Below are positions 15,891 to 43,158 of a stretch of 64,000 nt of DNA, in pieces. Below the pieces are notes generated by a model. That model was not told the origin of the DNA, searched no databases, and worked only from the letters and a program-made list of their open reading frames with translations. How positions within the stretch are numbered: the stretch's first letter is position 1; every line of letters begins with the position of its first letter. The translations under genes and the position numbers were made by a program. The stretch is from Corynebacterium singulare (GTDB lineage Bacteria > Actinomycetota > Actinomycetes > Mycobacteriales > Mycobacteriaceae): assembly GCF_000833575.1 (NCBI RefSeq), contig NZ_CP010827.1, positions 872,980 through 936,979 on the forward strand, read 5' to 3'.

Positions 15891-16672
15891 CGGCGCACTA
15901 ACCCGCCCAAGTGCTTGGCGGTGCGCACAATCTCTTCACCCGTGGAATCCGGCTCAAGATCGTGCTCCTCATAGTCGTCATAGTCATGAAGGCCGAGCTT
16001 CGCCACCGAGGTGCTGGCTACCTCAGCCACGCTGCGGCGGGGCGGGGGTGTGTCAACCTTGGGCTCTGGGCGGCCATCGGTGGCATAGCCCACGACGTCC
16101 ACATCCGGACCATCAGCGCCGACCTCGATGCCCAACCAGTAGGCTTGGGCAGCTTCGGTTATGCTCTGCGGCTCGAAGGGGAGTGCAATGCCGCCGGCTG
16201 GCTCGTCTTTCTCGCCGGCCCAGTAGGGAGCCTCGAACGTCTCGGGAAGTCCGTGATCCTCATAGAGATTGACACGGGTTCCGCACAAGGAACGGCGCAG
16301 GCGCGGGCCCGTCCAGTGTGCGAATCCTGCGTAACCCGTCTCCGGATTGGAGGTGAACGCATAGATCTCATGCGCCGGAACGGCTTCCCGCAGAGTACGC
16401 GAGAGCTGCGAGAGAATGAGCTGATCATCACTGATGATTGTCTGAACCACGGTGACGCCTGGGTAGCCGCCGATATAGAACTCGCTCGTACCAGGCTCAG
16501 CGGAGCGGTTAAGCGGGAACTGACCAATCGGCGTCACGGGGAGTGCAGGATTGAGTTGAGCCAGGAATTTCCGGCCGAAGCCGCGATCGGCCTTGGGCTC
16601 ACCGCGGAGGACCTCGGCGGGGTCAGCAGCAGTGACGTACCAGAGAGTGAGAACGGCGCTTTGAGTTTCCAC
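15842..16672 (-). CDS. DUF6928-like protein
   Basis: 276 aa, GTG start (residues METQSAV...). Soluble and tryptophan/tyrosine-rich: LTLWYVTAADPAEVLRGEP, PVTPIGQFPLNRS, IYAFTSNPETGYAGFAHWTG. It fits the actinobacterial DUF6928 family. It begins 6 bp after the stop of sepH, with a weak ribosome site, so it is probably coupled to sepH. The C-terminal region (about 200-276) is disordered and acidic and then basic, and overlaps the TrmH gene end by 49 bp. Function is unknown; the sepH linkage hints at cell division or envelope. Confidence 0.72.
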   Translation of the reverse strand: METQSAVLTLWYVTAADPAEVLRGEPKADRGFGRKFLAQLNPALPVTPIGQFPLNRSAEPGTSEFYIGGYPGVTVVQTIISDDQLILSQLSRTLREAVPAHEIYAFTSNPETGYAGFAHWTGPRLRRSLCGTRVNLYEDHGLPETFEAPYWAGEKDEPAGGIALPFEPQSITEAAQAYWLGIEVGADGPDVDVVGYATDGRPEPKVDTPPPRRSVAEVASTSVAKLGLHDYDDYEEHDLEPDSTGEEIVRTAKHLGGLVRRYAVSTSRNLWQRWRS

Positions 16673-29629: not shown

Positions 29630-29693
29630 TTGTTGTGGGTCTGCCAGATGACGATTAATCCTTAGTGACTCGAAAAGACTAGCGAAAACTCTC

Positions 29694-29699
29694 TATACT
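29694..29699 (+). promoter_or_regulatory. -10 box implying a leaderless mRNA
   Basis: TATACT ends 7 bp before the ATG at 29707, so transcription would start at or next to the start codon. No Shine-Dalgarno sequence fits in between. Confidence 0.6.
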
Positions 29700-29706
29700 T
29701 GAGGCT

Positions 29707-30930
29707 ATGTTCACATCGCTTCACCGTGCATTGGGGCTCGGCCCCACTGAAAAGATCACTTCTGAAATGCTCGACAAGTTAGTCGAGTTCGGGGTGGAGG
29801 AAGCCTCGGATTTGGACTTTAAAGAGAAAGTTCCCCCCGCCTCCGCTGTAGCTGCCGGTGACATGAAGAAGGATTTGTGTGCCATGGCTAATACGGGAGG
29901 TGGAGTGATTGTATACGGCATTCGCGAGAGCAGCGAGAACAAAGATCAAGCGGGAACTCGGAGCTCAGCAGGAAGTACCGGTCCTGAGTTTGAGCAAGCA
30001 GTCTTACAACTGGCTTATGGAAGTATCGCTCCGCCACTGAACGGGCTTGAGTTTCACCGAGTGGACGAAGGGCGAGAGAACAACGCTCTCGTTCTTGTGG
30101 TACCTGCAAGCAGGCAGGCGCCGCATATGTATTTTGTGGAGAAAAAAGATAAGCGGACCCTTGCGGTCCCAGTCAGGAATGGCGCCTATTCTGAGTGGCT
30201 CACCGAGCCGGAAATCGCTCGTTTGTACCGCCAGCGATTTGAAGCACAGGCAAGGGCTGATGAGCAACTTCAGGTACTTTTCGAAAGAACTATTCAGCTC
30301 AGAGCAGATGAAGGCTATTGGATGGCGGGCGTTGCCTACCCGACTTCGAGCGCTATTGGGTTCAAACGGGAAGCCACAACTATTGTAAAAGTTGCTCTAG
30401 CGGCCAAGGACCACGTAATACGTAAGCAATATGACGGTGGGATAACTCCATTGACAGCTAGTTATCAAAGCTGTCGGCGAGGCTTCAGGAGCTGGAGATT
30501 TGCTGAGGACCGCGATTGGGAGAGGCCGGAAACATATGTTGAGTTTCACGACGATGGTGCTATTTCTGTGTTGTGTCGCCTAGATGAAGCGGTGGCAGGA
30601 TCTGGGACGTCATTAGTTAGCTCGTATAGGCTTGCGGTTGTTGCAGGCGATCTCGTAGCTTTGATGGCCGAGTACTCTCGGCTTACGGGAGTCAGAGGGT
30701 ACGACGTTAGGATCGGTATGGAGTGGACCGGGGCTAGGCCACTGGAGATCTCTGCTCCTAGGGATATTCGCTTTTTTAGTGAAAAGCCGCTGCCGATCAC
30801 TCGTTTCATTCCCGTCACTGTAACGGTAGACATCTCGGACCCAGAAACACTGTTAGATTCGGCTCGCTCGTTAGCCCTTGATTGTTTGAATCAAGCTGGA
30901 ATCACTAGGCTTACGGTCTTTGATAGCTGA
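29707..30930 (+). CDS. AlbA_2 (Schlafen-type) domain protein
   Basis: 407 aa. Residues about 25-170 form an AlbA_2 domain: EEASDLDFKEKVPP with the acidic/Lys cluster, then DLCAMANTGGGVIVYGIRES and a conserved LVLVVPASRQAPH strand. The C-terminal 230 residues have no motif I recognise and lack the usual winged-helix/ATPase tail. AlbA_2 proteins bind nucleic acid, and some are tRNA/RNA nucleases or defence components. It is the first gene of the AT-rich block, 175 bp before a DNA methyltransferase on the same strand. It may be a regulator or an added effector of the restriction-modification pair. Confidence 0.8.
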   Translation: MFTSLHRALGLGPTEKITSEMLDKLVEFGVEEASDLDFKEKVPPASAVAAGDMKKDLCAMANTGGGVIVYGIRESSENKDQAGTRSSAGSTGPEFEQAVLQLAYGSIAPPLNGLEFHRVDEGRENNALVLVVPASRQAPHMYFVEKKDKRTLAVPVRNGAYSEWLTEPEIARLYRQRFEAQARADEQLQVLFERTIQLRADEGYWMAGVAYPTSSAIGFKREATTIVKVALAAKDHVIRKQYDGGITPLTASYQSCRRGFRSWRFAEDRDWERPETYVEFHDDGAISVLCRLDEAVAGSGTSLVSSYRLAVVAGDLVALMAEYSRLTGVRGYDVRIGMEWTGARPLEISAPRDIRFFSEKPLPITRFIPVTVTVDISDPETLLDSARSLALDCLNQAGITRLTVFDS

Positions 30931-30989
30931 CATTCTCAGTGGACACCTCTCGGGGGAGCTTGAGAGCCTTTGGCGGCTTCTCGAGTCCT

Positions 30990-31018
30990 AGGGGCAGTGG
31001 CCTGTATGTCTTGCCCCT
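30990..31018 (+). terminator. Hairpin between AlbA_2 and methyltransferase genes
   Basis: AGGGGCA (30990-30996) and TGCCCCT (31012-31018) form a 7-bp stem. Beside it GAGAGCC / GGCTTCTC can also pair. It may end the AlbA_2 transcript or control the methyltransferase. Confidence 0.4.
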
Positions 31019-31104
31019 CCTGTAGCGTGATGGAGACAAAATGAGGCTGGGGCAAGTGTGTAAAGCGAAAAAGCTCAAGCACGCTCTATGAAAGGTAAGA
31101 GAAG

Positions 31105-32064
31105 ATGGCTCAACTTTACTCATCGATCGAGGTATGCGCTGGTGCTGGAGGGCAGGCCTTGGGGCTGGAGATGGCGGGCTTCGAGCACGATCTTTTAATT
31201 GAGATCGAAAGCTGGTGTACGAAAACGTTGCGTCATAATCGTCCTGAATGGAATGTACTGCAAGCTGATCTCAACGAGTGGGAGCCTGCGCCCGAGCACC
31301 ACGGTATTGACCTCTTTGCAGGAGGGGTACCTTGTCCTCCATTTAGTGTTGCAGGAAAGCAACTCGGTAAGGAAGACGAGCGTGATCTTTTCATGCGCGC
31401 AATCGAACTTGTAGAAATTATTAACCCGCGCGGTGTTTTGCTTGAAAACGTTCGAGGTCTTATGGATCCTAAATTTGAGGAATATCGTAAGGAGATTCTC
31501 TCTCGTTTAGAGAAGGCTGGCTACATCGCCGAATGGAAGCTCATAATCGCTTCAGATTATGGAGTTCCGCAGCTTCGTCCGCGGGCGATCTTGATTGCTC
31601 TGAGACCTGAGGATTGGGAGCACTTTGAATGGCCGGAGAAGCATCCGGAAGAGGCACCAACAGTTGGAGAAGCAGTAGTTGATCTAATGTCCGCTAACGG
31701 TTGGAAAGGGGCAAAGTCTTGGGCCAGAAGTGCGAATAAAATCGCTCCGACGCTTGTTGGCGGTTCAAAGAAGCATGGTGGGCCAGACTTAGGACCAACT
31801 CGCGCGCGGAAAGCTTGGCTGGAGATGAATGTCATTGGCACGACTATTGCAGATGAGGCACCAGAGCAAGATTTCAACGGCCAACCGCGGATGACCCCTA
31901 AGATGTTGGCGAGGATTCAGGGATTCCCTGATTCTTGGGAAATTACAGGTCGAAAGACCAACGCTTGTCGTCAAATTGGTAACGCTTTTCCGCCGCCCGT
32001 AGCTAAGGCAGTTGGTCTTCAAATCCGTAGTGCCTTTGAGGCGACAGATAGCAAAACTAGTTAG
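31105..32064 (+). CDS. C5-cytosine DNA methyltransferase (type II)
   Basis: 319 aa, complete. Motif I is IEVCAGAGGQALGLEMAGF, the catalytic motif IV is PCPPFSVAG with Cys77, motif VI is LLENVRGLM (ENV 114-116), motif VIII is near YGVPQLRPRAILIAL, and motif X is the C-terminal GNAFPPPVAKAVG. It transfers methyl from SAM to cytosine C5. The target-recognition region (about 190-260) is short, suggesting a 4-5 bp site; the site itself cannot be predicted. Its last 4 bp overlap the convergent HNH nuclease gene, making a compact modification-restriction pair. Confidence 0.95.
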   Translation: MAQLYSSIEVCAGAGGQALGLEMAGFEHDLLIEIESWCTKTLRHNRPEWNVLQADLNEWEPAPEHHGIDLFAGGVPCPPFSVAGKQLGKEDERDLFMRAIELVEIINPRGVLLENVRGLMDPKFEEYRKEILSRLEKAGYIAEWKLIIASDYGVPQLRPRAILIALRPEDWEHFEWPEKHPEEAPTVGEAVVDLMSANGWKGAKSWARSANKIAPTLVGGSKKHGGPDLGPTRARKAWLEMNVIGTTIADEAPEQDFNGQPRMTPKMLARIQGFPDSWEITGRKTNACRQIGNAFPPPVAKAVGLQIRSAFEATDSKTS

Positions 32065-32819
32065 CGTTCCTCGACTCTTTCGAGATAATCGAGCACGGCG
32101 GTTTGAACAAGCGGTCCACCAAGACGGTACTCATCAAATGCACGGTCCAGATTAGTTCGTGTTCGCTGGCCAGCCCGAATCCAAGAGAGCATTTCTAGGC
32201 GATCGGACTTTTTCAAACTCTTAACTTGTTCTACTACGCTTTGGGGATCAGCAGTCGAACCGGTATCTGCTCGTGCTGATTCGTTGCAGACACGGCACTC
32301 AGTCTGGAGATTGTCAAGCGTAGCCGTTCCACCATGTGAGTTTGCTCTGATATGGCCAGCGGTTAGAACGACTGTTGAACCGTCATCATACTTTTCACGG
32401 GCGGCTCGTCCGCATAGAACACAGCGCCCGCCGTCACGTTCGAAAACCTGCCGACGTAGTTTCGCAGAAATGGAGTCTCGGCTTGGGCGAGGTCCTTCTC
32501 CGGGCCACCAGCCGTACTTTTCAAGGATGCAATCCTCGCCAAGGCTCGGTTCCTCCTTGGCTGAAAGGTACTCCCAACCGTAGTCGCGAAGTTCTCGTTG
32601 CCTTCGCTGTGCGTGTTCATTCTTGATGTTGAGCGTCTCTCTGAGCTGACGCGTAGTAAACCGGCCTCCTAGTTCGACGTTCCAACGAAGCCAGGATGCC
32701 ATTCTTGGAACTGCTCCGGTCGTACCGCGCTGTTTAGACTCCCACCACAGTTCGCCATCTGGTGCAAAAGCTTCGATGGGGTAATTCTTTTTTCCGGGAA
32801 CGAAGTCGAAATCAGCCAT
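32061..32819 (-). CDS. HNH endonuclease, probable restriction partner
   Basis: 252 aa. The C-terminal half holds an HNH/zinc motif: C133-x2-C136, H156 in LTAGHIRAN, N170 in LDNLQTEC, and C175-x2-C178. The N-terminal 115 residues include a helical segment (TTRQLRETLNIKNEHAQRRQ) that may read the DNA site. The gene is convergent with the cytosine methyltransferase and overlaps it by 4 bp, so it is most likely the type II restriction enzyme of the pair. An HNH nuclease with methylation-dependent activity remains possible. Confidence 0.85.
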   Translation of the reverse strand: MADFDFVPGKKNYPIEAFAPDGELWWESKQRGTTGAVPRMASWLRWNVELGGRFTTRQLRETLNIKNEHAQRRQRELRDYGWEYLSAKEEPSLGEDCILEKYGWWPGEGPRPSRDSISAKLRRQVFERDGGRCVLCGRAAREKYDDGSTVVLTAGHIRANSHGGTATLDNLQTECRVCNESARADTGSTADPQSVVEQVKSLKKSDRLEMLSWIRAGQRTRTNLDRAFDEYRLGGPLVQTAVLDYLERVEER

Positions 32820-32926
32820 AATTCGAATCTACACTCGCTAGATAATTGCCATCGGCAATTTCGGAAGGCCTTTAATCTAAGAGGACAGCTAGCTCAATAA
32901 CTTGTTCTAACGCTTTGGAAATGCAA

Positions 32927-34075
32927 TTAGCCGGAATGCTCCTTCAGCCAATCCAGGGCGACATCAATTCCTGTCCACGCAAGAGCAGTGGCACCATCCG
33001 AAAGCGTTTGGTTAGCGACTTCGCCTACGCATGCATCGGCGAAAGCCTCTTGGTGGTTCAAAACAGGATAAGAACCCACACCGATATAAGGGTGTATTGC
33101 CCTAGTTATATTGGAGACGTTAGCAAAATCAGTTGAGGCTTGACTCATTAATGTTTCAGGGCCATCTGTACGCAATTCACGTCCAAGGAGAAGGGCATTT
33201 TTCTCGTAGTATCCGAGGCCAGCCTCATCAGTAACGAAGTCGGAATACGGTTTCGACTCATCGATGATGGAGACTTCGCAACCGGTGGCAAGAGCCCCAG
33301 CTTTGAAACAGTTGATTACTTTTTGGGACGTAGCCTCCAGTTCTTCCATCGTTGACGCTCGTACGTACCAGCGCCCTTGTGTGCGGTGAGGAATAGCGTT
33401 TGGAGCATCACCACCTTTAGTGACAATCCCGTGCACACGCACAGTCGGGGGAAGCTGCTGCCGTAGTAAACCAATGGCAACTTCTGAGATTGTAAAAGCA
33501 TCGGCAGCGTTGACGCCTTGGGTTGGGTAGGAAGCCGCATGTGACGCATGGCCAGTGAAATTTACTTCCCAATGCAGAACGGCGAATGGCTTAGCCCTTA
33601 CGACATCAACGGGGGCGGGGTGCGACATCATTGCAAAGTGCAGCCCATCGAAAGCGCCGCGGTCTAGCATCTCAACCTTCCCGCCCTTTCCTTCTTCTGC
33701 TGGAGTTCCGAAAATCTCTACTGAGAGATCCAGTTCTTCCGCGACCTCGGAAAGAGCGATACCAGCCCCGAGAGACATGGCAGCAATCAGATTATGGCCG
33801 CAGGCATGCCCAATACCTGGCAGTGCGTCGTATTCCGCCATGATCCCAATTCGCTTAGAACCCGAGCCTTTCACTGCATGAAATGATGTAGGGATTGCTA
33901 CGTAATTCTCTTCAACATCAAAGCCACGTGAACGCAAGAAGTTTGCACATCGTTTAGATGACTCAACCTCCTCCCAAGCGATCTCGGGATTTTCATGAAG
34001 CCATTCAGAAAGCTCGATGAGAGCACTCAACTCCTTGTGGATAGCTTCGCGCGCCCTCTCTTTATACTTATTCAT
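32927..34075 (-). CDS. M20-family amidohydrolase (AbgB/PM20D2-like)
   Basis: 382 aa from ATG 34075 (MNKYKERAREAIHKEL). The M20 metal site is EYDALPGIGHACGHN (81-95) with D83, H90 and H94, and the catalytic glutamates are in GTPAEEGKGGK. A lid domain (about 180-290) begins WEVNFTGHASHAASYP. M20D enzymes hydrolyse N-acyl-amino acids, p-aminobenzoyl-glutamate or acyl-aminobenzoate-type amides. It is the last gene of the FMO-RidA-DUF1028-M20 operon, overlapping DUF1028 by 8 bp, so it probably performs a hydrolytic step in that pathway. Substrate is unknown. Confidence 0.9.
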   Translation of the reverse strand: MNKYKERAREAIHKELSALIELSEWLHENPEIAWEEVESSKRCANFLRSRGFDVEENYVAIPTSFHAVKGSGSKRIGIMAEYDALPGIGHACGHNLIAAMSLGAGIALSEVAEELDLSVEIFGTPAEEGKGGKVEMLDRGAFDGLHFAMMSHPAPVDVVRAKPFAVLHWEVNFTGHASHAASYPTQGVNAADAFTISEVAIGLLRQQLPPTVRVHGIVTKGGDAPNAIPHRTQGRWYVRASTMEELEATSQKVINCFKAGALATGCEVSIIDESKPYSDFVTDEAGLGYYEKNALLLGRELRTDGPETLMSQASTDFANVSNITRAIHPYIGVGSYPVLNHQEAFADACVGEVANQTLSDGATALAWTGIDVALDWLKEHSG

Positions 34076-34736
34076 CGCCAGGCACCCCATAGGAAGGAGC
34101 GGTGTGCGGTGATTTTCCGCGCGTCACGTAGTCATCGCGTTGGGGCATCCAAATTTCGAGTAGCTTCTCGAGTTCAGCAATCGGCGAATCAGACCAGTCC
34201 ACCCGCAGGTCAGTTTCTATCCACCCAGCGTCACGAACGACGCCTAAACCAGCAGACTGAACTGGGCCAGCTTCACCACCGGCCTCCAGGCCAGCGATCA
34301 TCGTTTCAAGCAAACGGTGCTCGAGTTCACCGCTAGTGCTTTCAAATCGGCGAAGCATCGCGTCGATAACCTTTTCCGATGCGAGCATATTTCCGGCAAT
34401 TACACAGTTATCGCCGACAACCTGGTTGTGCGTACCAAGCGTGTGGACTCCAGAGTGAGAGAAACCTGGACCCTTCGCTGGAAGAATCGTAATTTGTCGG
34501 TAATCCAGCGTGGAGTCATTCTCCTTGAGCCAGTCAAACGCCTCTTGAGCTGAACTGCCATTTTCGAGTCGCCCCAAAAGTACCGGACCGAACCGTGGAT
34601 CGGTGATGTTTTGGGATGACACCGCACCGATTTCGCTACGAAGGTTGAGGCAGCGAGCAGCGACTGCGGGTGAAGAAGACGAAACAGCTTGGCCAATGGC
34701 ACCTGAGCTGTCGCGAGCAATGATTGAAAAAGTCAT
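34068..34736 (-). CDS. DUF1028 protein (Ntn-hydrolase-like)
   Basis: 222 aa. The DUF1028 start MTFSIIARDSSGAIGQAVSS is diagnostic, with a SQNITDPRFGP strand, GPGFSHSGVHTLGTHN and an LRVDWSDSPIAELEKLL tail. The residue after the initiator Met is Thr2, which could act as the N-terminal nucleophile of an Ntn-hydrolase. The family's reaction is not established. Co-transcribed with RidA and the M20 hydrolase; the overlap with M20 suggests coupled translation. Confidence 0.88.
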   Translation of the reverse strand: MTFSIIARDSSGAIGQAVSSSSPAVAARCLNLRSEIGAVSSQNITDPRFGPVLLGRLENGSSAQEAFDWLKENDSTLDYRQITILPAKGPGFSHSGVHTLGTHNQVVGDNCVIAGNMLASEKVIDAMLRRFESTSGELEHRLLETMIAGLEAGGEAGPVQSAGLGVVRDAGWIETDLRVDWSDSPIAELEKLLEIWMPQRDDYVTRGKSPHTAPSYGVPGDE

Positions 34737-34822
34737 AAGCCTTCCAATGCTTGGGGAGCCTTATACGGATGGACAGTGAGAAGTGTCGACACCCCTGTAG
34801 GGCTCAGAATGGTTATCGAAAT

Positions 34823-35236
34823 CTAGTTGTTATCTAGAACGGCCGTCGCATCAATTTCGACGAGCCATTCCGGGCGAGCCAGTGCATCAACTACAAGTCC
34901 TGTAGAAACGGGGTACACGCCCTTCAGCCACCTACCCATTACGTTGTAAACGGCTTCGCGGTAGCGAATGTCTGTCAGATAGACGGTGACCTTTACGATG
35001 TTCTCGAGACTTCCGCCTGCTTCTTTCATAAGCATGTCGATGTTTGCCATTGCCTTTTCGGCCTGTGCCTCGACGTCACCGATGCCGACAGATTCGCGAG
35101 AGTCTAGATCTTGGCCAATCTGGCCACGGAGGAAGACAATGTTATTAGCGACCACTGCTTGGCAAAGATCATTGGAGAGATTTTGTTCTGGGTATGTGTC
35201 CTTCGTATTGAAGGGACGGATACGAGTGAACTTCAT
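34823..35236 (-). CDS. ridA: RidA-family enamine/imine deaminase
   Basis: 137 aa from ATG 35236 (MKFTRIRPFNTKDTYPEQN); a longer in-frame start would read a leader inside the FMO gene. The YjgF/RidA domain has NNIVFLRGQIG, the NIVKVTVYLTDIRYREAVYNV core and a C-terminal STGLVVDALARPEWLVEIDATAVL with the conserved Arg. RidA proteins hydrolyse reactive enamine or imine intermediates and, in pathway-specific forms such as RutC, act as dedicated catabolic steps. Placed second in the monooxygenase operon, so probably a pathway enzyme. Confidence 0.92.
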   Translation of the reverse strand: MKFTRIRPFNTKDTYPEQNLSNDLCQAVVANNIVFLRGQIGQDLDSRESVGIGDVEAQAEKAMANIDMLMKEAGGSLENIVKVTVYLTDIRYREAVYNVMGRWLKGVYPVSTGLVVDALARPEWLVEIDATAVLDNN

Positions 35237-35277
35237 GGTGAAGCCTTTCGGTAGTTGGGATGATGAACGTGAGGGAC

Positions 35278-36531
35278 TCAGTCTTCGGGGTGACGGTAAT
35301 CGCGGTAGTTGCGCTGAATGTTGATTTGATCTGCGACAAACTTGGCGTCGTGCCAGCAGCCCCAAATAAACGACGAGCCACGACGTGACTGCCACGGCAG
35401 TCCGACGAAGTAAACACCGTGCGCAGTAGAGACTCCACGGTTGTGAATCGGAGTACCTTGGCTATCGACAGCGTTTTCTACGTCGAGCCAGGCGTAATCT
35501 CTCCCATATCCGGTGGCCCAAAGGATGCTATTCACACCATTGGCCTTCAGTTCGAGCTCTTGTAGCGGATTTACTACGCATTCAGGATCAGGTCCCAAAG
35601 TGTGGGCCTCGGGTTCTTCGGGGAGATCTAGCCCATTCTGTTCAATGAATGCGTCTGCCTCTCGAAGGAGTGAGAGATAGTTTTCGTCTCCCTCATGGAT
35701 ATTGCGTGCGAGGTCTGCAGCAAATTTCATGCGACCGTTTTCATACGGTCCGGCGCGTCCTACGAGCGTGATTCCTTTAGCTGCGAGATCTCGGAAATCC
35801 ACGGTGTGACCGCCCTTGGCACCGGTAACTGAGATAGTGACATGTTCAGCGCCTTCTGCTGGTGTTGCCATATCCCACTTATCTAAGACGCCGAGCCAGT
35901 AGACAAAATCGCGGTTTCGATACCGACGAGGAGGACGATCGTGAGGACCTACGGCAAGGTAGACCTCCCGGCCCGCGTCGCGGAGCTCGTCTGCAATCTG
36001 AACGCCGGAAGACCCCGCACCAACAACGAGTACCCCGCCTTCGGGAAGATCTCCTGGGTTGTGGTAGTCGGATGAGTGGATTTGGAAGATTTCTTCTTGT
36101 GGGACTACGGCAGGGATTGCGGGGACCTGAAATGCTCCAGTGGCGGCAACGACAAAGTCACAGTCATACGTGTCCTCGGAAGTTTCCACAATGAATCCGT
36201 GACCGCCATCCTTGCGAGTCACTTTCCTGACGGTTATTCCCTCTTTAACCGGTAGATCGAAAAGCTTGGTGTATTTCACCATGTAGTCAGCGACTTCTTC
36301 TTTAGGGACGAAGCGTTCTTGGTCTCCCTCGAACTTCAACCCTGGGAAACGATCGTGCCAAGCGGGGCCATTTGCAACGAGAGAGTCCCATCGTTCCGAG
36401 CGCCAGCGAGAAGCGATTTTGTCTCGTTCAAGGACGATGTGGTCGATCCTGTAGGAGCGAAGATGTTCGCTAGTTGCAATACCAGCTTGGCCAGCGCCGA
36501 TAATGACGACTTCCTTTTTGATGTGAGGCAT
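35278..36531 (-). CDS. Flavin-containing monooxygenase (CzcO/YUCCA-like)
   Basis: 417 aa from ATG 36531 (MPHIKKEVVI), with GGAG 7 nt upstream. An FAD motif VVIIGAGQAGIATSEHL lies at 7-24. A sequence FQIHSSDYHNPGDL stands at the place of the FMO fingerprint FxGxxxHxxxY. The NADPH motif is GGVLVVGAGSSGVQIADEL, and a WATGYGRDYAWLD motif is near the C-terminus. It inserts one oxygen atom into a soft nucleophile or carbonyl. It is the first gene of the leftward operon and divergent from a LysR gene, so it should be the committing step of the pathway. Confidence 0.92.
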   Translation of the reverse strand: MPHIKKEVVIIGAGQAGIATSEHLRSYRIDHIVLERDKIASRWRSERWDSLVANGPAWHDRFPGLKFEGDQERFVPKEEVADYMVKYTKLFDLPVKEGITVRKVTRKDGGHGFIVETSEDTYDCDFVVAATGAFQVPAIPAVVPQEEIFQIHSSDYHNPGDLPEGGVLVVGAGSSGVQIADELRDAGREVYLAVGPHDRPPRRYRNRDFVYWLGVLDKWDMATPAEGAEHVTISVTGAKGGHTVDFRDLAAKGITLVGRAGPYENGRMKFAADLARNIHEGDENYLSLLREADAFIEQNGLDLPEEPEAHTLGPDPECVVNPLQELELKANGVNSILWATGYGRDYAWLDVENAVDSQGTPIHNRGVSTAHGVYFVGLPWQSRRGSSFIWGCWHDAKFVADQINIQRNYRDYRHPED

Positions 36532-36679
36532 ACAAAACTCCAAATGTCGGAAAATGAGGCTGGATCACGGTCGTAAAGGTAAAGTGCGGCACACTGTCTA
36601 GAAAGTGTGATCCAGATATCAATAGTCTGTTGTGGGGGTGCGAGTTAAAGCAAGTACCTTCTACGTACAAAGATCATCA

Positions 36680-36693
36680 ATTATTCTGATAAT
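36680..36693. promoter_or_regulatory. Candidate LysR box, FMO operon
   Basis: ATTAT-TCTG-ATAAT is a perfect inverted repeat containing the T-N11-A LysR-type core. It lies between the divergent FMO operon (start 36531) and the LysR gene (start 36762). Confidence 0.55.
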
Positions 36694-36761
36694 AGGCATG
36701 ACCTGTATTTTTTGCGGTGGAGAGTGCGGTTTTGGGTATTTGATGGGTAAAGGAGCAGACA

Positions 36762-37673
36762 GTGGCAAAGACTGAATCGGCGATAACGCTGACGCAAATG
36801 CGTTACTTTGTGCGGGTGGCTGAGCTGAGGTCGATGAGCGCAGCTGCAGATGAGCTTTTTGTAGCTCCGTCCGCAGTGTCAATGGCTATCTCACAGCTTG
36901 AGCAGGCTGTTGGATGTCAGCTTCTGATGCGACGTCGTTCAAAGGGGGTTGCCCTTACGGATCAGGGGCGAATTTTCTATCCGCATTGCCTAAGGGTTCT
37001 AACGGGGGTTAAGGACGCGGTTGATAGTGTGCGGACGGGTGCTTTGGGGGGACGGTTGACGGCTGGATGCTTTACGACTCTCGCGCAGTTTTGGATTCCG
37101 GATATTGTAGAAGGAATTCATGCGAGCCATCCAGGGGTGGATGTTGATATTTGGGAATGTGATGCGGACCAGTTGGAGGACGCATTGTCACAGCGGAAAA
37201 TTGAGGCTGCCCTTGCATATGACTTCGATTATGGCCGAGAGATTGAATTTGTCCCAATGGGCACAGCACCTCTTTATGCAGTTTTTGGAGATGGTCACCG
37301 GTTCGCTCATGCGGAAAAGGTGGAATTGTCCTCGTTGGCGTCTGATCCCCTAGTGCTGTTGGACTTGGGGAAATCCTCAAACTATTTCTTGTCTGTGTTT
37401 CGTGAGGCAGGGGTTGAACCGCTGGTGAGTTATAGATTCGAGAGCTTTGAGATTGTTAGATCTATGGTTGCAAGGGGTTATGGGTATTCCGTGCTTAATC
37501 AGTCGCCGGTGCATGACCTGACTAACGAAGGACTGCATTTGAATCGTGTGCCGATAGTTGGGGCGGAGGAGGGGCTTCGGGTCGGGGTAATTAAGCGAAG
37601 GGGGGAGAATCTGTCGCTGAGGGCGGAATTGTTTGTTGACACCGTGCGATTGTTGCTGCAGGAGCGTCGATAG
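36762..37673 (+). CDS. LysR-family regulator of the FMO operon
   Basis: 303 aa, GTG start with AAAGGAG upstream. The N-terminal winged helix-turn-helix (about 10-65) reads ITLTQMRYFVRVAELRSMSA then AADELFVAPSAVSMAISQLE. The C-terminal LysR effector domain extends from about 90. It is divergent from the FMO-RidA-DUF1028-M20 operon with a LysR box between, the standard arrangement for an activator responding to a pathway inducer. The second LysR at 39414 is a homologue with an almost parallel layout. Confidence 0.93.
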   Translation: MAKTESAITLTQMRYFVRVAELRSMSAAADELFVAPSAVSMAISQLEQAVGCQLLMRRRSKGVALTDQGRIFYPHCLRVLTGVKDAVDSVRTGALGGRLTAGCFTTLAQFWIPDIVEGIHASHPGVDVDIWECDADQLEDALSQRKIEAALAYDFDYGREIEFVPMGTAPLYAVFGDGHRFAHAEKVELSSLASDPLVLLDLGKSSNYFLSVFREAGVEPLVSYRFESFEIVRSMVARGYGYSVLNQSPVHDLTNEGLHLNRVPIVGAEEGLRVGVIKRRGENLSLRAELFVDTVRLLLQERR

Positions 37674-37758
37674 TTGCACTACGAAGTGCTCGGAGGGCTA
37701 AGTGACCCGGTGGGCCTCTAGGGCTATTTGGCGAAATGGTATTAAGAAAAGTGAAGGG

Positions 37759-37774
37759 GGTATCAAAAAATACC
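37759..37774. promoter_or_regulatory. Inverted repeat upstream of the MFS transporter
   Basis: GGTAT-CAAAAA-ATACC is a perfect 5-bp inverted repeat with a T-N11-A-like core, 157 bp before the transporter start. It could be a LysR target that ties transporter expression to the pathway. Confidence 0.45.
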
Positions 37775-37930
37775 GATAGACTAAACGTCAGAGTTGCCAT
37801 ACTGTGATCCGTAATACGCGCCAGTGTAAGGCGCATCACGTTGGAAGTATAAATACTGTCTTGTCACTCAGAATTTCAATTGTGGTGTCCAACACAGACC
37901 TGGCGGTAGGATCACGCAAAGGATTGGATA

Positions 37931-39286
37931 ATGACGAACTCAATAGATCAAAGAAAGGCTGCGTCACCTCAAGAACTACGGCGCAACACCATTGCCGGGG
38001 CAATCGGTGTCCTCGTCCACTGGTTCGACTGGGCAGTTTATGCCTATCTGGCGACTACGATTTCCCACGTATTTTTTCCCTCCGACGATGAAACGGCCAG
38101 CCTTCTCTCTGTATTTGCGGTCTTCGCGGTTGCTTTCTTCGTTCGGCCTCTTGGCTCCGTGATATTTGGTCATATTGGCGACACACTCGGGCGAAAGAAA
38201 ACCCTCTCATTTGTCATCATTACGATGGCTGTGGGAACCCTCATGATCGGACTGATTCCATCCCATGAAACTATCGGTATCTGGGCTCCGATCTTGTTGA
38301 TTGTCGCCCGGGTGATTCAAGGTATCGCGGCTGGAGGAGAATTCGGTTCTGCCGCATCGTTCCTTTCTGAATACTCGCCGCGCGGAAAACGTGGTTTTGG
38401 AACCTCGTGGATTGAATTTGGCTCTGTTATGGGATTCCTTTTGGCTTCCGTGGTGGTGGCCGGAATGCACTTGACGCTTTCCGATGAAGCAATTATGGCT
38501 TGGGGATGGCGAGTTCCATTCTTGCTGACTGTCCCTCTGGCAGCAGTAGGCCTTTGGATCAGATTGAAAATTGAAGACACGCCAGAATTTCAAACACTGC
38601 AAGAGGAGGATATTGTTCCTGAGGCCCCTCTGAAAGAGGTATTTCAGAAAAACTCCAAGCAGTTTTTCCAAACAATTGGTATTGAGATTTTCATGAATTG
38701 CACGTTCTATGTGGTCATGGTTTATCTCATCACTTACCAAGAGACAGTTGCAGGCATTGAACCTGGTGTGGCTTCCATATTGTCTGCGGTCGCTTCGATT
38801 GTTGCCGCGGCTATGATTCCACTAGCTGGAATTTGGTCCGACAAAATCGGACGAAAACCGGTATTGTTTACCGCTGCAGCATTGCTTATCGTATTGGCGT
38901 TCCCAATGTTCTTGCTTATGAAGCAGGGGACTGCGCTGGCAGGGTTTATCGCTACCTTTGGGCTTGCGGCATCTCTTGCGCTTATTCTTGGTACCCATTC
39001 GGCAACCGTATCCGAGCTTTTCCCGACACGTACCCGACAATCAGGCTTATCGATGGCTTATTCAATTGCTGGAGCTTTCTTTGCCGGCACCCTTCCGTAC
39101 CTGAATACGTGGCTCATCGATGTCACTGGCAACGACATGATTCCGGCATACACGCTAATTGTGGTCGCGATAATTGGCGTGATTACTCTGCTTACAATTC
39201 CTGAGACGAAAGGTATTGCTCTCTTGCACGAATCGGACCTGGCTGGCGCAAAGAGGAATAAAAAAGAGGCTCTTCTAGGAGAATGA
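37931..39286 (+). CDS. MFS transporter, metabolite:H+ symporter type
   Basis: 451 aa with 12 transmembrane helices. NTIAGAIGVLVHWFDWAVYA and the loop motif FGHIGDTLGRKKTL, plus ASFLSEYSPRGKRGFGTSWI, place it in the MHS branch (ProP, ShiA, KgtP, citrate/alpha-ketoglutarate-type carriers) that takes up organic acids and zwitterions with protons. It sits between two LysR genes facing the catabolic operon, so it is the likely importer of the substrate. AAAGGA lies 11 nt before ATG. Confidence 0.93.
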   Translation: MTNSIDQRKAASPQELRRNTIAGAIGVLVHWFDWAVYAYLATTISHVFFPSDDETASLLSVFAVFAVAFFVRPLGSVIFGHIGDTLGRKKTLSFVIITMAVGTLMIGLIPSHETIGIWAPILLIVARVIQGIAAGGEFGSAASFLSEYSPRGKRGFGTSWIEFGSVMGFLLASVVVAGMHLTLSDEAIMAWGWRVPFLLTVPLAAVGLWIRLKIEDTPEFQTLQEEDIVPEAPLKEVFQKNSKQFFQTIGIEIFMNCTFYVVMVYLITYQETVAGIEPGVASILSAVASIVAAAMIPLAGIWSDKIGRKPVLFTAAALLIVLAFPMFLLMKQGTALAGFIATFGLAASLALILGTHSATVSELFPTRTRQSGLSMAYSIAGAFFAGTLPYLNTWLIDVTGNDMIPAYTLIVVAIIGVITLLTIPETKGIALLHESDLAGAKRNKKEALLGE

Positions 39287-39351
39287 ACTATCAATGATAC
39301 ATCTCGCCCCTAAGCGGGTGTGACTATACTTCCGGTAGAAGATTGCCACGA

Positions 39352-39390
39352 TTGCAGGGTGACAGCAAGCATTTACGGGCCCTGCAATTT
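39352..39390 (+). terminator. Terminator of the MFS gene
   Basis: TTGCAGGG (39352-39359) and CCCTGCAA (39380-39387) form a perfect 8-bp stem followed by TTTTGG. It ends just before the LysR start, so it may also act as an attenuator for that gene. Confidence 0.65.
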
Positions 39391-39413
39391 TGGCGTTGGA
39401 AGAAAGGTATTCG

Positions 39414-40313
39414 TTGGGTATTTCCTTTCGACAGCTCGAGTACTTTGACGCCGTCGCTGAAACTGGCAGTGTGACTGCGGCTGCTTCAAAACTATTTGTC
39501 TCGCAGTCGGCGATTTCGAGCGCAATCGGTGAGCTAGAGTCAAGCCTTAATGTCTCCTTGTTTATACGTCATCCTCGTGGGTTGTCTCTAAGTGCGGATG
39601 GTCTCGTAATTCTGAGACATGCAAAGGCTGCACTCGGTGTTGTCAGTGAAATCCAAAATGTTGCACGCCACTTGGGGCAGGAGATTTCGGGGTCTATTCG
39701 TCTCGGCTGTTATTCAACAATCGCGCCGCGTCTAGTTCCTCCTCTTGTAGAACTATTGGAATCAAAGTATCCAGAATTGCGGTTATCTTTTGAAACAGGA
39801 GATCGTTCCAAGCTTATCGATGGCCTGCGGCGCGGAAACTTCGATGTCATCGTGATTTACGATTACAGTTTTGAACAGGGGCTGAATGAAGTTGGAACGA
39901 TTACTGAGCTAACGGCGGTTAAACCGTATGCCTTACTGCCTTCTGAACACCCTCTGGCAGGTTCCCCTTCTGTTTGGTTGGAGCAGTTGGTCGAGGACCG
40001 ATTTATCCTTTTCGAATTGAAGCCAGCAGCACAATATTTTCTGTCCTTGTTCGAGAAAGTCAAGTTAAAGCCAAAAGTTTGGTTTCGGACCGGAAGCAAT
40101 GAAGTTATCCGAGGTATGGTGGCCCGCGGCCTGGGATATTCCTTATTGACTCAATATTCGGAACTCAGTTTTTCGCATGACGGGAATGCTTATGTTCAAA
40201 AGCAGCTTTCGAATGATTTTGATGCGCTGCCTATCGTAGCGGTCACTTTGAAAGGGGGAGAAGAGCGGGCAAAAGTCGATGTATTTCTTTCGTTGCTTAA
40301 GGAACTCTATTGA
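39414..40313 (+). CDS. LysR-family regulator (second copy)
   Basis: 299 aa from TTG 39414 (MGISFRQLEYFDAVAETGSV), chosen because AGAAAGG lies 6 nt upstream; an earlier TTG at 39390 falls inside the T-run of the terminator. The winged helix-turn-helix is in TAAASKLFVSQSAISSAIGE, and the effector domain follows. Its design and C-terminal segments (MVARGLGYSLLTQY versus MVARGYGYSVLNQS) show it is a homologue of the LysR at 36762. It probably regulates the MFS gene or shares the pathway inducer. Confidence 0.9.
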   Translation: MGISFRQLEYFDAVAETGSVTAAASKLFVSQSAISSAIGELESSLNVSLFIRHPRGLSLSADGLVILRHAKAALGVVSEIQNVARHLGQEISGSIRLGCYSTIAPRLVPPLVELLESKYPELRLSFETGDRSKLIDGLRRGNFDVIVIYDYSFEQGLNEVGTITELTAVKPYALLPSEHPLAGSPSVWLEQLVEDRFILFELKPAAQYFLSLFEKVKLKPKVWFRTGSNEVIRGMVARGLGYSLLTQYSELSFSHDGNAYVQKQLSNDFDALPIVAVTLKGGEERAKVDVFLSLLKELY

Positions 40314-40401
40314 GGATTAAAATCCCAGTAATATGGGGTTGCGGCTTTCATTGTTTGCCAATTTTGCCGTGCATGAACGGGCTAGAGGCCCAGCTACGGA
40401 G

Positions 40402-40408
40402 CTTGTAG
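40402..40408. repeat. Left target-site duplication of the IS
   Basis: CTTGTAG directly precedes the TG end of the element and is repeated at 43043-43049. Confidence 0.9.
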
Positions 40409-40442
40409 TGTTGCGCGGGGGTATCTAGTAACACCGTGGTGA
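40409..40442. repeat. Left terminal repeat of the IS21 element
   Basis: Begins TGTTGCGC and contains TATCTAGTAACACCGTGGTG; pairs imperfectly with the right end at 43009-43042. Confidence 0.85.
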
Positions 40443-40543
40443 CTATCTAGTAACGGGATGGTGAGTATCGAGTAACACTTTGGGGGAAGATTCTTCTGAC
40501 CGCGTGACAAAAGGGCTCGCGGCATAATCAGAGGAGTCCGATC

Positions 40544-42178
40544 GTGACTGATTACCGGGCCGTGATGGACCTTGTCTTACAAGGCTGGTCCGTCCGTCAA
40601 ATCTGCTCGACTGTGCGTTGCTCACATACCACAGTCCAAAAGGCCCGCCAGACAATGGCGGCACACCAGATCACAACCCATGAACAACTCGCCGGCATCA
40701 CCGACGAAGAAATGGCCACATGGTTTGTTGATGGTCGAAGTCTTGCCCAAGGAGACTTCGTGCCCATCGACTTCGACGCGGTGGCCAAAGCACGTACCGG
40801 CCGAAACAAAGTCACTCTCCAAGTCTTGTGGGGCCGCTACACCACCCAACCTGCCCGTCCGTCTCAGCGTTACTACAGCTACGAGCGGTTCCGCCAGCTT
40901 GTCGCCGAACACGTTGATGCCACAGGACTTACCGCACGCATTACGCATATCCCGGCACACACTATGCAAGTCGACTGGGCCGGTACCACAATGCGGCTGT
41001 TTGACCCGATTGATGCCCGGGGTGCAAAAGTCAGTATTTTCGTGGCGTCACTGCCGTATTCCGGAATGTTGTTTGCCTGTGCTTGCCCGAACCAGCGGCA
41101 AGCAGCATGGCTGTGGGCGCATATCCAAGCGTTTGAATACTTCGGTGGCGTCGCTGAAGTCATTGTGCCTGATAATGCTTCGACAGCGTCACACGCAATC
41201 GGTGCTGCTGACCGCAACCGGCAGGTTAATTCCACCTACGAGGAATTCCTCGAGCATTACAACACTGCCGCGCTGCCTGCTCGCGCTCGGCGTCCGAAGG
41301 ACAAGGCGAACGTGGAAGCGGCAGTCAAGATCATCACCCAAAAAGTCATCCATACCCTCCACGGGCATCAATGCGTTGGGCTCGATGAACTCAATGCACG
41401 CATCCGCAGCCTAGTTGACGGTATCAATGACGCGGTACCCTTTCGTGGCACCTGCACCAGCAGAAGAATGCTCTTTAATGAGTTTGAACGTGATGTGCTT
41501 GGCCAACTTCCCGCATCACCGTGGCAGCATACCGAATGGAAACGCGCGAAAGTCGCCCCCAACTTCCACATCACCGTCAATACTGCTCACTATTCGGTGC
41601 CCTACCAGCTCGTCGGCCGCACTGTCGATGTACGCATCACCGGCAACGAAGTAACCGTCTTTGACGCTGGGCAGCGTGTTGCCACCCACCAGCTAGCCCA
41701 AGCCCGGGGGATCTATGTCACTGACGTGGATCATATTCCTGCCACCATGGCTGATACCACAGGACTGTGGACCAGTGACTACTTCTACCGTGAAGCAGCC
41801 AAGATCGGGCCAGCGACCCAGAAAGTCATCGCAGAACTCATCAGCGCAAAGGCAATCCCTGCCCAGGCATATCAGTCGTGTCGAAACGTACTAAATATGG
41901 GCAAGCACGCCAACAAGGCGATTTTGGAACAAGCCTGTGCCCGCCTGATCGCACCTGATGGCGCAAGGAGGGCCGTGTCGTATACCGCGGTGAAAAACAT
42001 GATGGCTGCGGTACGCAAAGACCAATCCACCCGCCCGACAGGCCATGATCTTCTGCCAACAACACCGCCTGAAACACCACCAGCAGTACACGCACGTGAT
42101 ACCCGCGGCGCGTATCTGGGTGGGTCTGCTCAGTTCAGCATGGAAAACCTTAGGAAGAAAGGACCTTCGCAGTCATGA
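40544..42178 (+). CDS. istA: IS21-family transposase IstA
   Basis: 544 aa, GTG start with GAGGAG 7 nt upstream. An N-terminal helix-turn-helix (about 5-45, GWSVRQICSTVRCSHTTVQ) binds the ends. The rve/DDE core holds MQVDWAGTTMRLFD (first Asp) and EVIVPDNAST (second Asp), with the Glu in the PKDKANVEAAVKI helix. A C-terminal beta-barrel domain begins FHITVNTAHYSVPYQLVG. It cuts and joins the IS ends together with IstB. No frameshift or stop is visible, so it is probably active. Confidence 0.96.
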   Translation: MTDYRAVMDLVLQGWSVRQICSTVRCSHTTVQKARQTMAAHQITTHEQLAGITDEEMATWFVDGRSLAQGDFVPIDFDAVAKARTGRNKVTLQVLWGRYTTQPARPSQRYYSYERFRQLVAEHVDATGLTARITHIPAHTMQVDWAGTTMRLFDPIDARGAKVSIFVASLPYSGMLFACACPNQRQAAWLWAHIQAFEYFGGVAEVIVPDNASTASHAIGAADRNRQVNSTYEEFLEHYNTAALPARARRPKDKANVEAAVKIITQKVIHTLHGHQCVGLDELNARIRSLVDGINDAVPFRGTCTSRRMLFNEFERDVLGQLPASPWQHTEWKRAKVAPNFHITVNTAHYSVPYQLVGRTVDVRITGNEVTVFDAGQRVATHQLAQARGIYVTDVDHIPATMADTTGLWTSDYFYREAAKIGPATQKVIAELISAKAIPAQAYQSCRNVLNMGKHANKAILEQACARLIAPDGARRAVSYTAVKNMMAAVRKDQSTRPTGHDLLPTTPPETPPAVHARDTRGAYLGGSAQFSMENLRKKGPSQS

Positions 42179-42951
42179 CACAGCCACAACCAGCATCGGC
42201 ATCAGCACGCTTTCTAGATGAATCGGTCCTGCCGGTCTTTACCGATCTGCGAATGACGGCCTTCGGCCGAACCGTGATTGATATTGCCGCAGATCCCGTC
42301 TTCGACTCGTGGAGCTTTTCTGACAAGGTGCTCCACGCACTCGATAAAGAAGTCGCGGCCAAGCGTGAGAGACGAGTCAACAAACTACTCAAAGCATCCC
42401 GATCGCCAAATCTTGATGCATGTATCGAAGACATCACCTACGCACCCGGCCGCAACCTCAACAAAGAGCAAATCACCAGACTCGCTCACTGCCAATGGTG
42501 TCAAAAAGCGCAAAGCATTGTCATCCTCGGCAAATCATCCGTCGGCAAAACCTACCTGGCCCAAGCACTGCTAACCGCCGCGTGCAGAAACGACTACTCC
42601 GCCCGCTTCTTCCGCACAGACACACTAGCCAACCAGCTGATGGTGCTACGCCATAATGACGCAGCACGCATGGAATTTCTTCAAGACCTACACCTGGCAG
42701 ACGTACTCGTTCTTGACGACTTCCTAACAACCCCGATTGATGCAGCCACAGCACACCAGCTACTCAATATTCTTGCGGAACGTGAACACCGGGGATCAAC
42801 GATCGTGACCTCACAGTTCACGCCCGACGAGTGGTACAAATCCATCCCGGATGCTGTCATCGCCGAGTCGATACTGAATCGGCTTGTCGTTGGCGCTGAG
42901 ATCATCACACTGGAAGGACCCAACATGCGCCTAGAAGGCAACGCAGAGTAG
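42175..42951 (+). CDS. istB: IS21-family helper ATPase IstB
   Basis: 258 aa. AAA+ domain with Walker A GKSSVGKTYLAQ (about 121-132) and Walker B VLVLDDFLTTP, and a sensor-like IVTSQF. It starts by 4-bp ATGA overlap with istA, the usual arrangement for this pair. IstB is the ATP-dependent target selector and stimulator of the transposase. Complete. Confidence 0.96.
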   Translation: MTQPQPASASARFLDESVLPVFTDLRMTAFGRTVIDIAADPVFDSWSFSDKVLHALDKEVAAKRERRVNKLLKASRSPNLDACIEDITYAPGRNLNKEQITRLAHCQWCQKAQSIVILGKSSVGKTYLAQALLTAACRNDYSARFFRTDTLANQLMVLRHNDAARMEFLQDLHLADVLVLDDFLTTPIDAATAHQLLNILAEREHRGSTIVTSQFTPDEWYKSIPDAVIAESILNRLVVGAEIITLEGPNMRLEGNAE

Positions 42952-43008
42952 TTGCTCATAAGCAACGCCCGGGTGTTACTCAATACTCACCCGGGCGTTA
43001 CTGCTTGC

Positions 43009-43042
43009 TCACCACGGCGTTACTAAATACGTGGTCCTAACA
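43009..43042. repeat. Right terminal repeat of the IS21 element
   Basis: Contains TCACCACGGCGTTACTAAATA and ends CCTAACA; 25 of 34 positions pair with the left end. Confidence 0.85.
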
Positions 43043-43049
43043 CTTGTAG
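43043..43049. repeat. Right target-site duplication of the IS
   Basis: CTTGTAG directly follows the CA end, identical to 40402-40408. Confidence 0.9.
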
Positions 43050-43109
43050 GCCAAAAATGGGGCACAAATATGTGTCGAGCAGCTCACTGTCGTGTTGAGC
43101 TTCCGGGAC

Positions 43110-43142
43110 GCCCCAGAGAGTCGAATCGCTAGTTTCTGGGGC
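43110..43142 (-). repeat. tRNA-like mini-hairpin, remnant of tRNA-Arg ends
   Basis: On the minus strand this 33-nt unit starts GCCCCAGA and ends TCTGGGGC. The outer 7 nt on each side are identical to the acceptor arms of the neighbouring tRNA-Arg(CCT), and the interior carries GATTCGACTC, a T-loop-like TTCGA. D and anticodon arms are absent. It may be a collapsed tRNA copy or an attachment-site remnant. Confidence 0.65.
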
Positions 43143-43158
43143 AACTGAAAACGAAAAA

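Follow-up and report, generated by a model that had tools for sequence, protein, structure and literature searches.

A Corynebacterium singulare gene cluster related to the hin genes, with a predicted role in uptake and degradation of imidazole-4-acetate

In P. aeruginosa, hinF-L-H-G (PA5393-PA5390) convert imidazole-4-acetate to aspartate, and hinD, hinC and hinA are further histamine genes of Pseudomonas (PMC8231116). In the assignments given for P. putida (accessions AWA45227-AWA45230 for HinF, HinL, HinH and HinG), HinF is a flavin adenine dinucleotide (FAD) monooxygenase (EC 1.14.13.5), HinL an enamine deaminase, HinH an amidase and HinG an amidase (EC 3.5.1.8) (PMC6467879). The chemistry that has been proposed runs from imidazole-4-acetate through imidazolone-acetate to N-formyl-aspartate (PMC2542419). 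We analyzed a cluster of seven genes at 32927..40313 of a 64,000-nucleotide stretch of the Corynebacterium singulare genome (NZ_CP010827.1, positions 872,980 to 936,979), here called the window. By Pfam and NCBIfam, the genes encode a flavin monooxygenase (FMO), a RidA protein (Ribonuc_L-PSP), a DUF1028 protein, an M20 amidohydrolase, a symporter of the metabolite:H+ type (MHS) and two LysR regulators. An initial annotation had named the same genes, families and placement and had described a complete-looking uptake and degradation module, and our analysis agrees with this. It had also called the pathway undescribed and the substrate unknown. On this point we differ, as the FMO, RidA and DUF1028 genes correspond to hinF, hinL and hinH as assigned in PMC6467879. 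We propose, with a probability of roughly 0.8, that the module imports imidazole-4-acetate, a breakdown product of histamine, and degrades it to aspartate.

We found that the correspondence to the hin genes runs through Brevibacterium. Brevibacterium strains S111, S22 and L261 use histamine as sole carbon source, and Table 3 of the same paper lists the S111 tags for HinI (11520), HinF (11515), HinL (11505), HinH (11500) and HinD (11485) (PMC6467879). The S111 locus in our collection (L023) carries no tags and reads aspartate ammonia-lyase, FMO, LysR, RidA, DUF1028, M20, MHS and aldehyde dehydrogenase. Matched by order and kind, the listed tags fit these genes, and therefore HinL should be the RidA protein and HinH the DUF1028 protein. 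The window FMO shares 61-62% identity with its counterparts in S111 and S22 and on an Arthrobacter plasmid. Its assignment as a HinF-type enzyme was made through the S111 protein (61% identity), which is listed as 60% identical to HinF (PMC6467879), and not against HinF itself. The window RidA, beside the FMO, is 75-77% identical to the S22 and S111 proteins (77% for the S111 gene that occupies the HinL position), the DUF1028 protein shares 52% identity with the one that S111 has in the HinH position, and the symporter is 59-61% identical to the MHS proteins of the Brevibacterium clusters. In all, the S111 and S22 clusters share FMO, LysR, RidA, DUF1028, MHS and an M20 enzyme of the M20D type with the window, with the four enzymes 52-77% identical. 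Unlike the window cluster, they also contain HinD and aspA, and they belong to bacteria that grow on histamine (PMC6467879). DUF1028 had been annotated as a family with no established reaction; HinH has already been called an amidase (PMC6467879). A search for 'DUF1028' found no paper in the literature collection that was covered.

The cluster also resembles hinFLHG of P. putida U and P. aeruginosa. It encodes relatives of the FAD monooxygenase, the enamine deaminase and the amidase in the hinF-L-H order, its last gene is a hydrolase, and LysR control appears to be common to both. In contrast to the Pseudomonas genes, the M20D enzyme is not of the HinG type, hinACD are not nearby, and there are an MHS importer and a second LysR gene. 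Judged by its genes, the cluster is a variant of the described pathway in which the last enzyme and the importer are different and the front end is missing. It is, on the same grounds, a real and conserved catabolic module, predictable by homology to that pathway.

We found that the four enzyme families co-occur in actinobacteria and, with another type of M20 enzyme, in proteobacteria, the result of a check that the initial annotation had suggested. Scanning genome contigs with the DUF1028 protein, we confirmed 157 relatives and retained the best 80; these are near relatives and not the whole family. Because the loci are incomplete, the counts are lower bounds, and the identity cut-offs (40-45%) were set in this analysis. 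The RidA type was present in 78 of the 80 loci and the FMO type in 47 (48 if a fragment at the edge of L032 is counted). M20D was found in 17 and an ArgE-like M20 in 50, and no locus had both. The 17 M20D loci are the 17 actinobacterial loci, and 16 of these have the FMO. Two loci from Rhodobacter/Tabrizicola (L027 and L029) had DUF1028 and no RidA relative in the DNA examined.

Within Corynebacterium, DUF1028 was present in 11 of 242 genomes. The order FMO-RidA-DUF1028-M20 was kept in all 11, the window included, and the MHS importer was linked to the cluster in eight. A HinD relative (63-65%) was a neighbor in one (G166), and aspA (57%) in one. In G120, which is also one of the 11, the M20 gene is in two pieces (L096:8007-9255). 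In a sample of the family, 7 of 201 genomes had the FMO at E <= 1e-90; the short flanks of these seven contained RidA and DUF1028 in three (C. singulare among them), RidA only in two, and neither in two.

Several related clusters are located with genes of the histamine type. A plasmid of Arthrobacter sp. ERGS1:01 (L102) has the same four genes in the same order with a divergent LysR gene and the same upstream motif (ATCA-N7-TGAT; see below), and unlike the window it adds a primary-amine oxidase, an aldehyde dehydrogenase and an aspartate ammonia-lyase, with no MHS gene in the stretch read. Its genes run aldehyde dehydrogenase, primary-amine oxidase, LysR, FMO, RidA, DUF1028, M20 and aspartate ammonia-lyase. 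On a Pseudonocardia plasmid we found LysR, MFS, FMO, RidA, DUF1028, M20 and aspartate ammonia-lyase. In four of the 80 loci, all from Acinetobacter, FMO-RidA-DUF1028 has genes for aldehyde dehydrogenase, class III aminotransferase and amino-acid permease as neighbors. As annotated, these neighbors are the same kinds of genes as hinD, hinC and hinA. Among 30 actinobacterial loci scored with our cut-offs (three species are present twice), 12 had a HinD relative and six an aspartate ammonia-lyase.

Alternatively, these enzymes might use a related imidazole acid as their substrate. One candidate would be N-methylimidazole-acetate, which is among the main metabolites of histamine in humans, and a second would be another imidazole carboxylate. 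Such a substrate would fit an importer of the organic-acid type and a genome with no close histamine front end, and the window FMO is just 50% identical to the Acinetobacter FMO that adjoins the aminotransferase, aldehyde dehydrogenase and permease. However, the Brevibacterium and Arthrobacter enzymes with 61-62% identity to the FMO are located with histamine-type genes, and one Corynebacterium cluster (that of G166) has a HinD relative next to it. We regard a different imidazole acid as rather improbable.

We found no close relatives of the hin front end (HinC or a histamine oxidase, HinD and HinA) in the C. singulare genome using Acinetobacter and Brevibacterium queries. The best match to the Brevibacterium aldehyde dehydrogenase was 38% (seven matches), and the best match to the Acinetobacter aminotransferase was 30% over most of its length, or 39% over a shorter stretch (five matches). 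The best match to the HinA-type permease, with the Acinetobacter query, was 23%. No copper amine oxidase was found in this genome, and one of the 11 Corynebacterium genomes (G066) has one. The missing front end, together with the linked MHS importer, points to import of imidazole-4-acetate itself. The cell could also run the full histamine pathway with front-end enzymes that are encoded elsewhere and are too divergent to recognize. The seven aldehyde dehydrogenase and five aminotransferase matches leave some room for this, but the absence of a copper amine oxidase, the poor match to the permease and the recurrence of the MHS importer beside 8 of 11 Corynebacterium clusters make it unlikely. 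For the step beyond aspartate, an aspartate ammonia-lyase of the HinI type (50% identical) is encoded at C1:1442824-1444257, unlinked to the cluster.

We also found no HinG orthologue in the C. singulare genome; with the ArgE-like gene from the Acinetobacter cluster as query, the best match was 26%. HinG is probably ArgE-like itself, judging from the proteobacterial clusters and from the label 'peptidic bond hydrolase' of PA5390. Because there is no HinG orthologue, the M20D enzyme of the cluster is the likely last enzyme. In the published Brevibacterium table, HinG is placed outside the cluster and neither M20D nor MHS is given a role (PMC6467879). The window M20 protein scores over the TIGR01891 cut-off, and its residues C97, H99, E132, E133, H157 and H346, which we take to be the likely metal-binding and catalytic residues, are kept in at least 29 of 30 rows. 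The genome encodes one further full-length M20 relative, 35% identical to that of the cluster.

The initial annotation had suggested N-acyl-amino acids or amide-linked skin compounds as substrates of an undescribed pathway. Membership of the M20 protein in an amide-hydrolase family would allow this. However, its nearest relatives in the PDB are Xaa-Arg dipeptidases (2e-64), the first three genes match hinFLH gene by gene, and related clusters in other organisms are linked to aspA and to genes for amine oxidase and aldehyde dehydrogenase. We found no support for such a pathway in the gene context, and N-alpha-acyl-glutamine aminoacylase was a distant match to the M20 protein (1.3e-11). We consider N-acyl or skin-amide substrates very improbable. 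In contrast, the order of reactions that had been suggested (oxygenation, C=N hydrolysis, amide cleavage) fits degradation of imidazole-4-acetate.

The RidA and DUF1028 proteins have features that set them apart. Canonical RidA, a 2-imino acid deaminase that is also of the Ribonuc_L-PSP family, has a catalytic arginine in its PAR motif. We located this position from three alignments to RidA proteins in the PDB. In the cluster type it is occupied by serine in 93 and by phenylalanine in 5 of 98 aligned rows, whereas R5, R7, R37, R91, R93, E94 and W124 are kept in at least 97 of 98. (The 98-row alignments contain four duplicate pairs: C. singulare and three other species were entered twice.) The DUF1028 protein (profile match 201 bits) has a threonine directly after the start methionine, a possible nucleophile of an N-terminal nucleophile hydrolase. 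Thr2 was found in 98 of 98 rows, a count that is biased by the use of MTFSIIAR as one of six patterns to fetch the 80 loci. It was also found in ten other Corynebacterium genomes identified by profile and in four plasmid copies identified by tblastn, and a solved DUF1028 relative (2imh) has threonine at the same position.

The window FMO groups with other Corynebacterium FMOs in a tree of 76 rows, made after excluding by hand 11 of 120 listed proteins and the loci L011, L020 and L032. This group lies in the mainly actinobacterial half of the tree, which also contains one Acetobacter row. Several forks are open, and the tree supports only the placement of the window FMO among the actinobacterial ones. 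The top NCBIfam match of the FMO was TIGR04046, the MSMEG_0569 family, which we take to be of the Nit1C type. A member of that family might indicate a cluster for obtaining nitrogen from cyanide or nitriles. The match scored 350.8 bits against a cut-off of 498.35, which speaks against membership, and there is no nitrilase or radical-SAM protein among the cluster genes. A role in cyanide or nitrile use is extremely improbable. The MHS protein, too, was below its model cut-off (TIGR00883; 404 versus 443 bits).

We found that both LysR proteins have the same best matches in the PDB, 3fzv and 6m5f, by a wide margin over others. We presume that these structures are P. aeruginosa HinK, although the database label is only 'Probable transcriptional regulator'. 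The two window proteins are homologous, as had been noted, with 31% identity to each other. HinK responds to imidazole-4-acetic acid (PMC8231116, PMC10912698), and its affinity for this compound has been noted as weak (1.56 mM; PMC8231116).

A box of the T-N11-A type upstream of the FMO gene is common to relatives, consistent with the box that the initial annotation had described. A loose definition of T-N11-A gave two imperfect sites in the first test, and 17% of 500 mononucleotide shuffles reached as many. The sequence ATCA-N7-TGAT lies between the FMO and LysR 1 genes and is exact in five of eight Corynebacterium LysR-FMO intergenic regions. In 1000 dinucleotide shuffles of the eight regions, a mean of 0.07 regions contained it and none reached five. 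Since the motif was picked from these same regions, the fairer test is that of the 300-bp stretches before FMO genes, where it was present in 10 of 66, all of them actinobacterial; its density in these loci predicts approximately 0.6. With one duplicate removed, along with the sites from which the motif was derived, four sites (L007, L010, L096 and L102) remain as independent support. One other exact copy in the window is at 16424-16438.

Based on these results we suggest the following route. Imidazole-4-acetate would be taken up by the MHS symporter, and its ring would be hydroxylated by the FMO (HinF) to give imidazolone-acetate. Next, the ring would be opened by the DUF1028 (HinH) and RidA (HinL) proteins, which would also free the formimino nitrogen as ammonia to yield N-formyl-aspartate. 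Our guess is that DUF1028, with its N-terminal threonine, cleaves the ring amide and that HinL acts on the C=N bond. The M20D enzyme, replacing HinG, would take off the formyl group, and aspartate would be converted to fumarate by the unlinked aspartate ammonia-lyase. The LysR proteins would sense imidazole-4-acetate, as HinK does, and bind the ATCA-N7-TGAT box, a candidate regulator site that is open to immediate testing. In place of a guess at an unknown substrate, this proposal names a product and a substrate that can be tested. The possible role of DUF1028 narrows to the steps between imidazolone-acetate and N-formyl-aspartate. The proposal also suggests that actinobacteria use a different M20 subfamily for the last step and that certain corynebacteria take up a product of histamine breakdown but do not use histamine itself. 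Among the matches listed in our literature searches, there was no description of imidazole-acetate or histamine catabolism in a named Corynebacterium; the relevant papers among them dealt with Pseudomonas, Brevibacterium and cheese. Cheese-rind data include 55 Hin-like proteins with >80% identity, two of them on unclassified Corynebacteriales contigs (PMC8921697).

Several observations weigh against imidazole-4-acetate as the substrate. The link to the Hin proteins relies on gene tags and on identities tabulated in a published paper, and not on the P. putida or P. aeruginosa sequences, and the account of the Brevibacterium hin genes in PMC6467879 includes no knockout or test of them by its authors. 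Within the DNA examined, just 3 of the 30 scored actinobacterial loci had an amine oxidase relative, and the FMO was not seen in 33 of the 80 DUF1028 loci. Four of the seven FMO loci in the family sample (L108, L110-L112) had no DUF1028 in the short flank. The C. singulare genome may encode front-end enzymes that differ in sequence from the queries; it contains distant aldehyde dehydrogenases and aminotransferases. In addition, the RidA-DUF1028-M20 set also occurs next to other oxygenases and is therefore not bound to imidazole-acetate.

The oxygenase partner of the set seems to be exchangeable. With no FMO nearby, the set is found with an ectoine-hydroxylase-like dioxygenase in Acinetobacter baylyi (L078:7564-14549) and with an HpaB-type hydroxylase in Gulosibacter (L006:2956-8672). 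A tentative generalization, which we think has perhaps one chance in three of holding, is that ring opening and deamination are carried out by a portable unit of DUF1028, an M20 deacylase and a RidA of the arginine-less HinL type. This unit would work with various oxygenases (HinF-type FMO, PhyH-type dioxygenase, HpaB-type hydroxylase), importers and heterocyclic acids; DUF1028 would be a new ring-opening amidase with an N-terminal threonine, HinL would represent a new class of Rid iminohydrolases, and the Corynebacterium unit would serve host-derived imidazole-acetate. RidA-DUF1028-ArgE is also present on plasmids of Klebsiella (L103:7562-16672) and Pantoea (L105:8562-18672), with no FMO annotated in the stretch. 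The neighbors there are an ABC transporter, a quinone oxidoreductase, a GST, a type II dehydroquinase, GhrA and a polyamine-type binding protein, and these clusters appear to represent a different, unexplained pathway. DUF1028 was found on E. coli plasmids too.

The features of the cluster and its surroundings are listed in Table 1. The gaps between the FMO and RidA genes (41 bp) and between the RidA and DUF1028 genes (86 bp) are compatible with a single operon. With the ATG at 34075 as the M20 start, the DUF1028 and M20 genes overlap by 8 bp, as had been reported; with the ATG at 34090, they overlap by 23 bp. The FMO start is the ATG at 36531; a longer open reading frame begins with TTG at 36543. 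An Rfam scan of 32000-41000 found no RNA element reaching the gathering score.

Table 1. Cluster genes, proposed operator and surrounding island (window positions).
Feature	Position	Strand	Basis
M20D amidohydrolase, proposed to replace HinG as N-formylaspartate deformylase	32927..34090	-	TIGR01891, PDB relatives
DUF1028 protein, HinH-type amidase (predicted), Thr right after start Met	34068..34736	-	profile match, alignment
HinL-type RidA protein, Ser replacing the canonical Rid active-site Arg	34823..35236	-	Pfam/NCBIfam, alignment
HinF-type FAD monooxygenase (FMO), predicted imidazole-4-acetate monooxygenase	35278..36531	-	Pfam/NCBIfam, identity, tree
ATCA-N7-TGAT, proposed LysR operator (T-N11-A type)	36676..36690	.	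sequence motif; divergent promoter region 36544-36761
LysR regulator 1	36762..37673	+	Pfam/NCBIfam; best PDB matches 3fzv/6m5f
MHS-type metabolite:H+ symporter, predicted imidazole-4-acetate importer	37931..39286	+	Pfam/NCBIfam, identity to Brevibacterium MHS
LysR regulator 2	39390..40313	+	Pfam/NCBIfam; best PDB matches 3fzv/6m5f
Low-GC (guanine plus cytosine) variable island holding the cluster	29632..43153	.	51.8% GC vs 60.3% flanks; ~13.5 kb

The cluster lies in a low-GC island at a tRNA-Arg(CCT)/folA/thyA flank. The island is absent from one genome (G195, L113), in which the flanks are present with approximately 0.6 kb between the matching ends. In G016 (L114), the closest of 20 relatives searched with the flank proteins (91-92%), approximately 10.9 kb without a nucleotide match occupies the site. 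The cluster was likely gained by transfer. Also on the island, at 29707-32819, are a gene with an SLFN/AlbA_2 domain, a C5 cytosine methyltransferase (best PADLOC matches DruM2, then type II) and an HNH nuclease, a probable restriction-modification or defense set. An IS21-type istA/istB element is located at the right end of the cluster (40544-42951).

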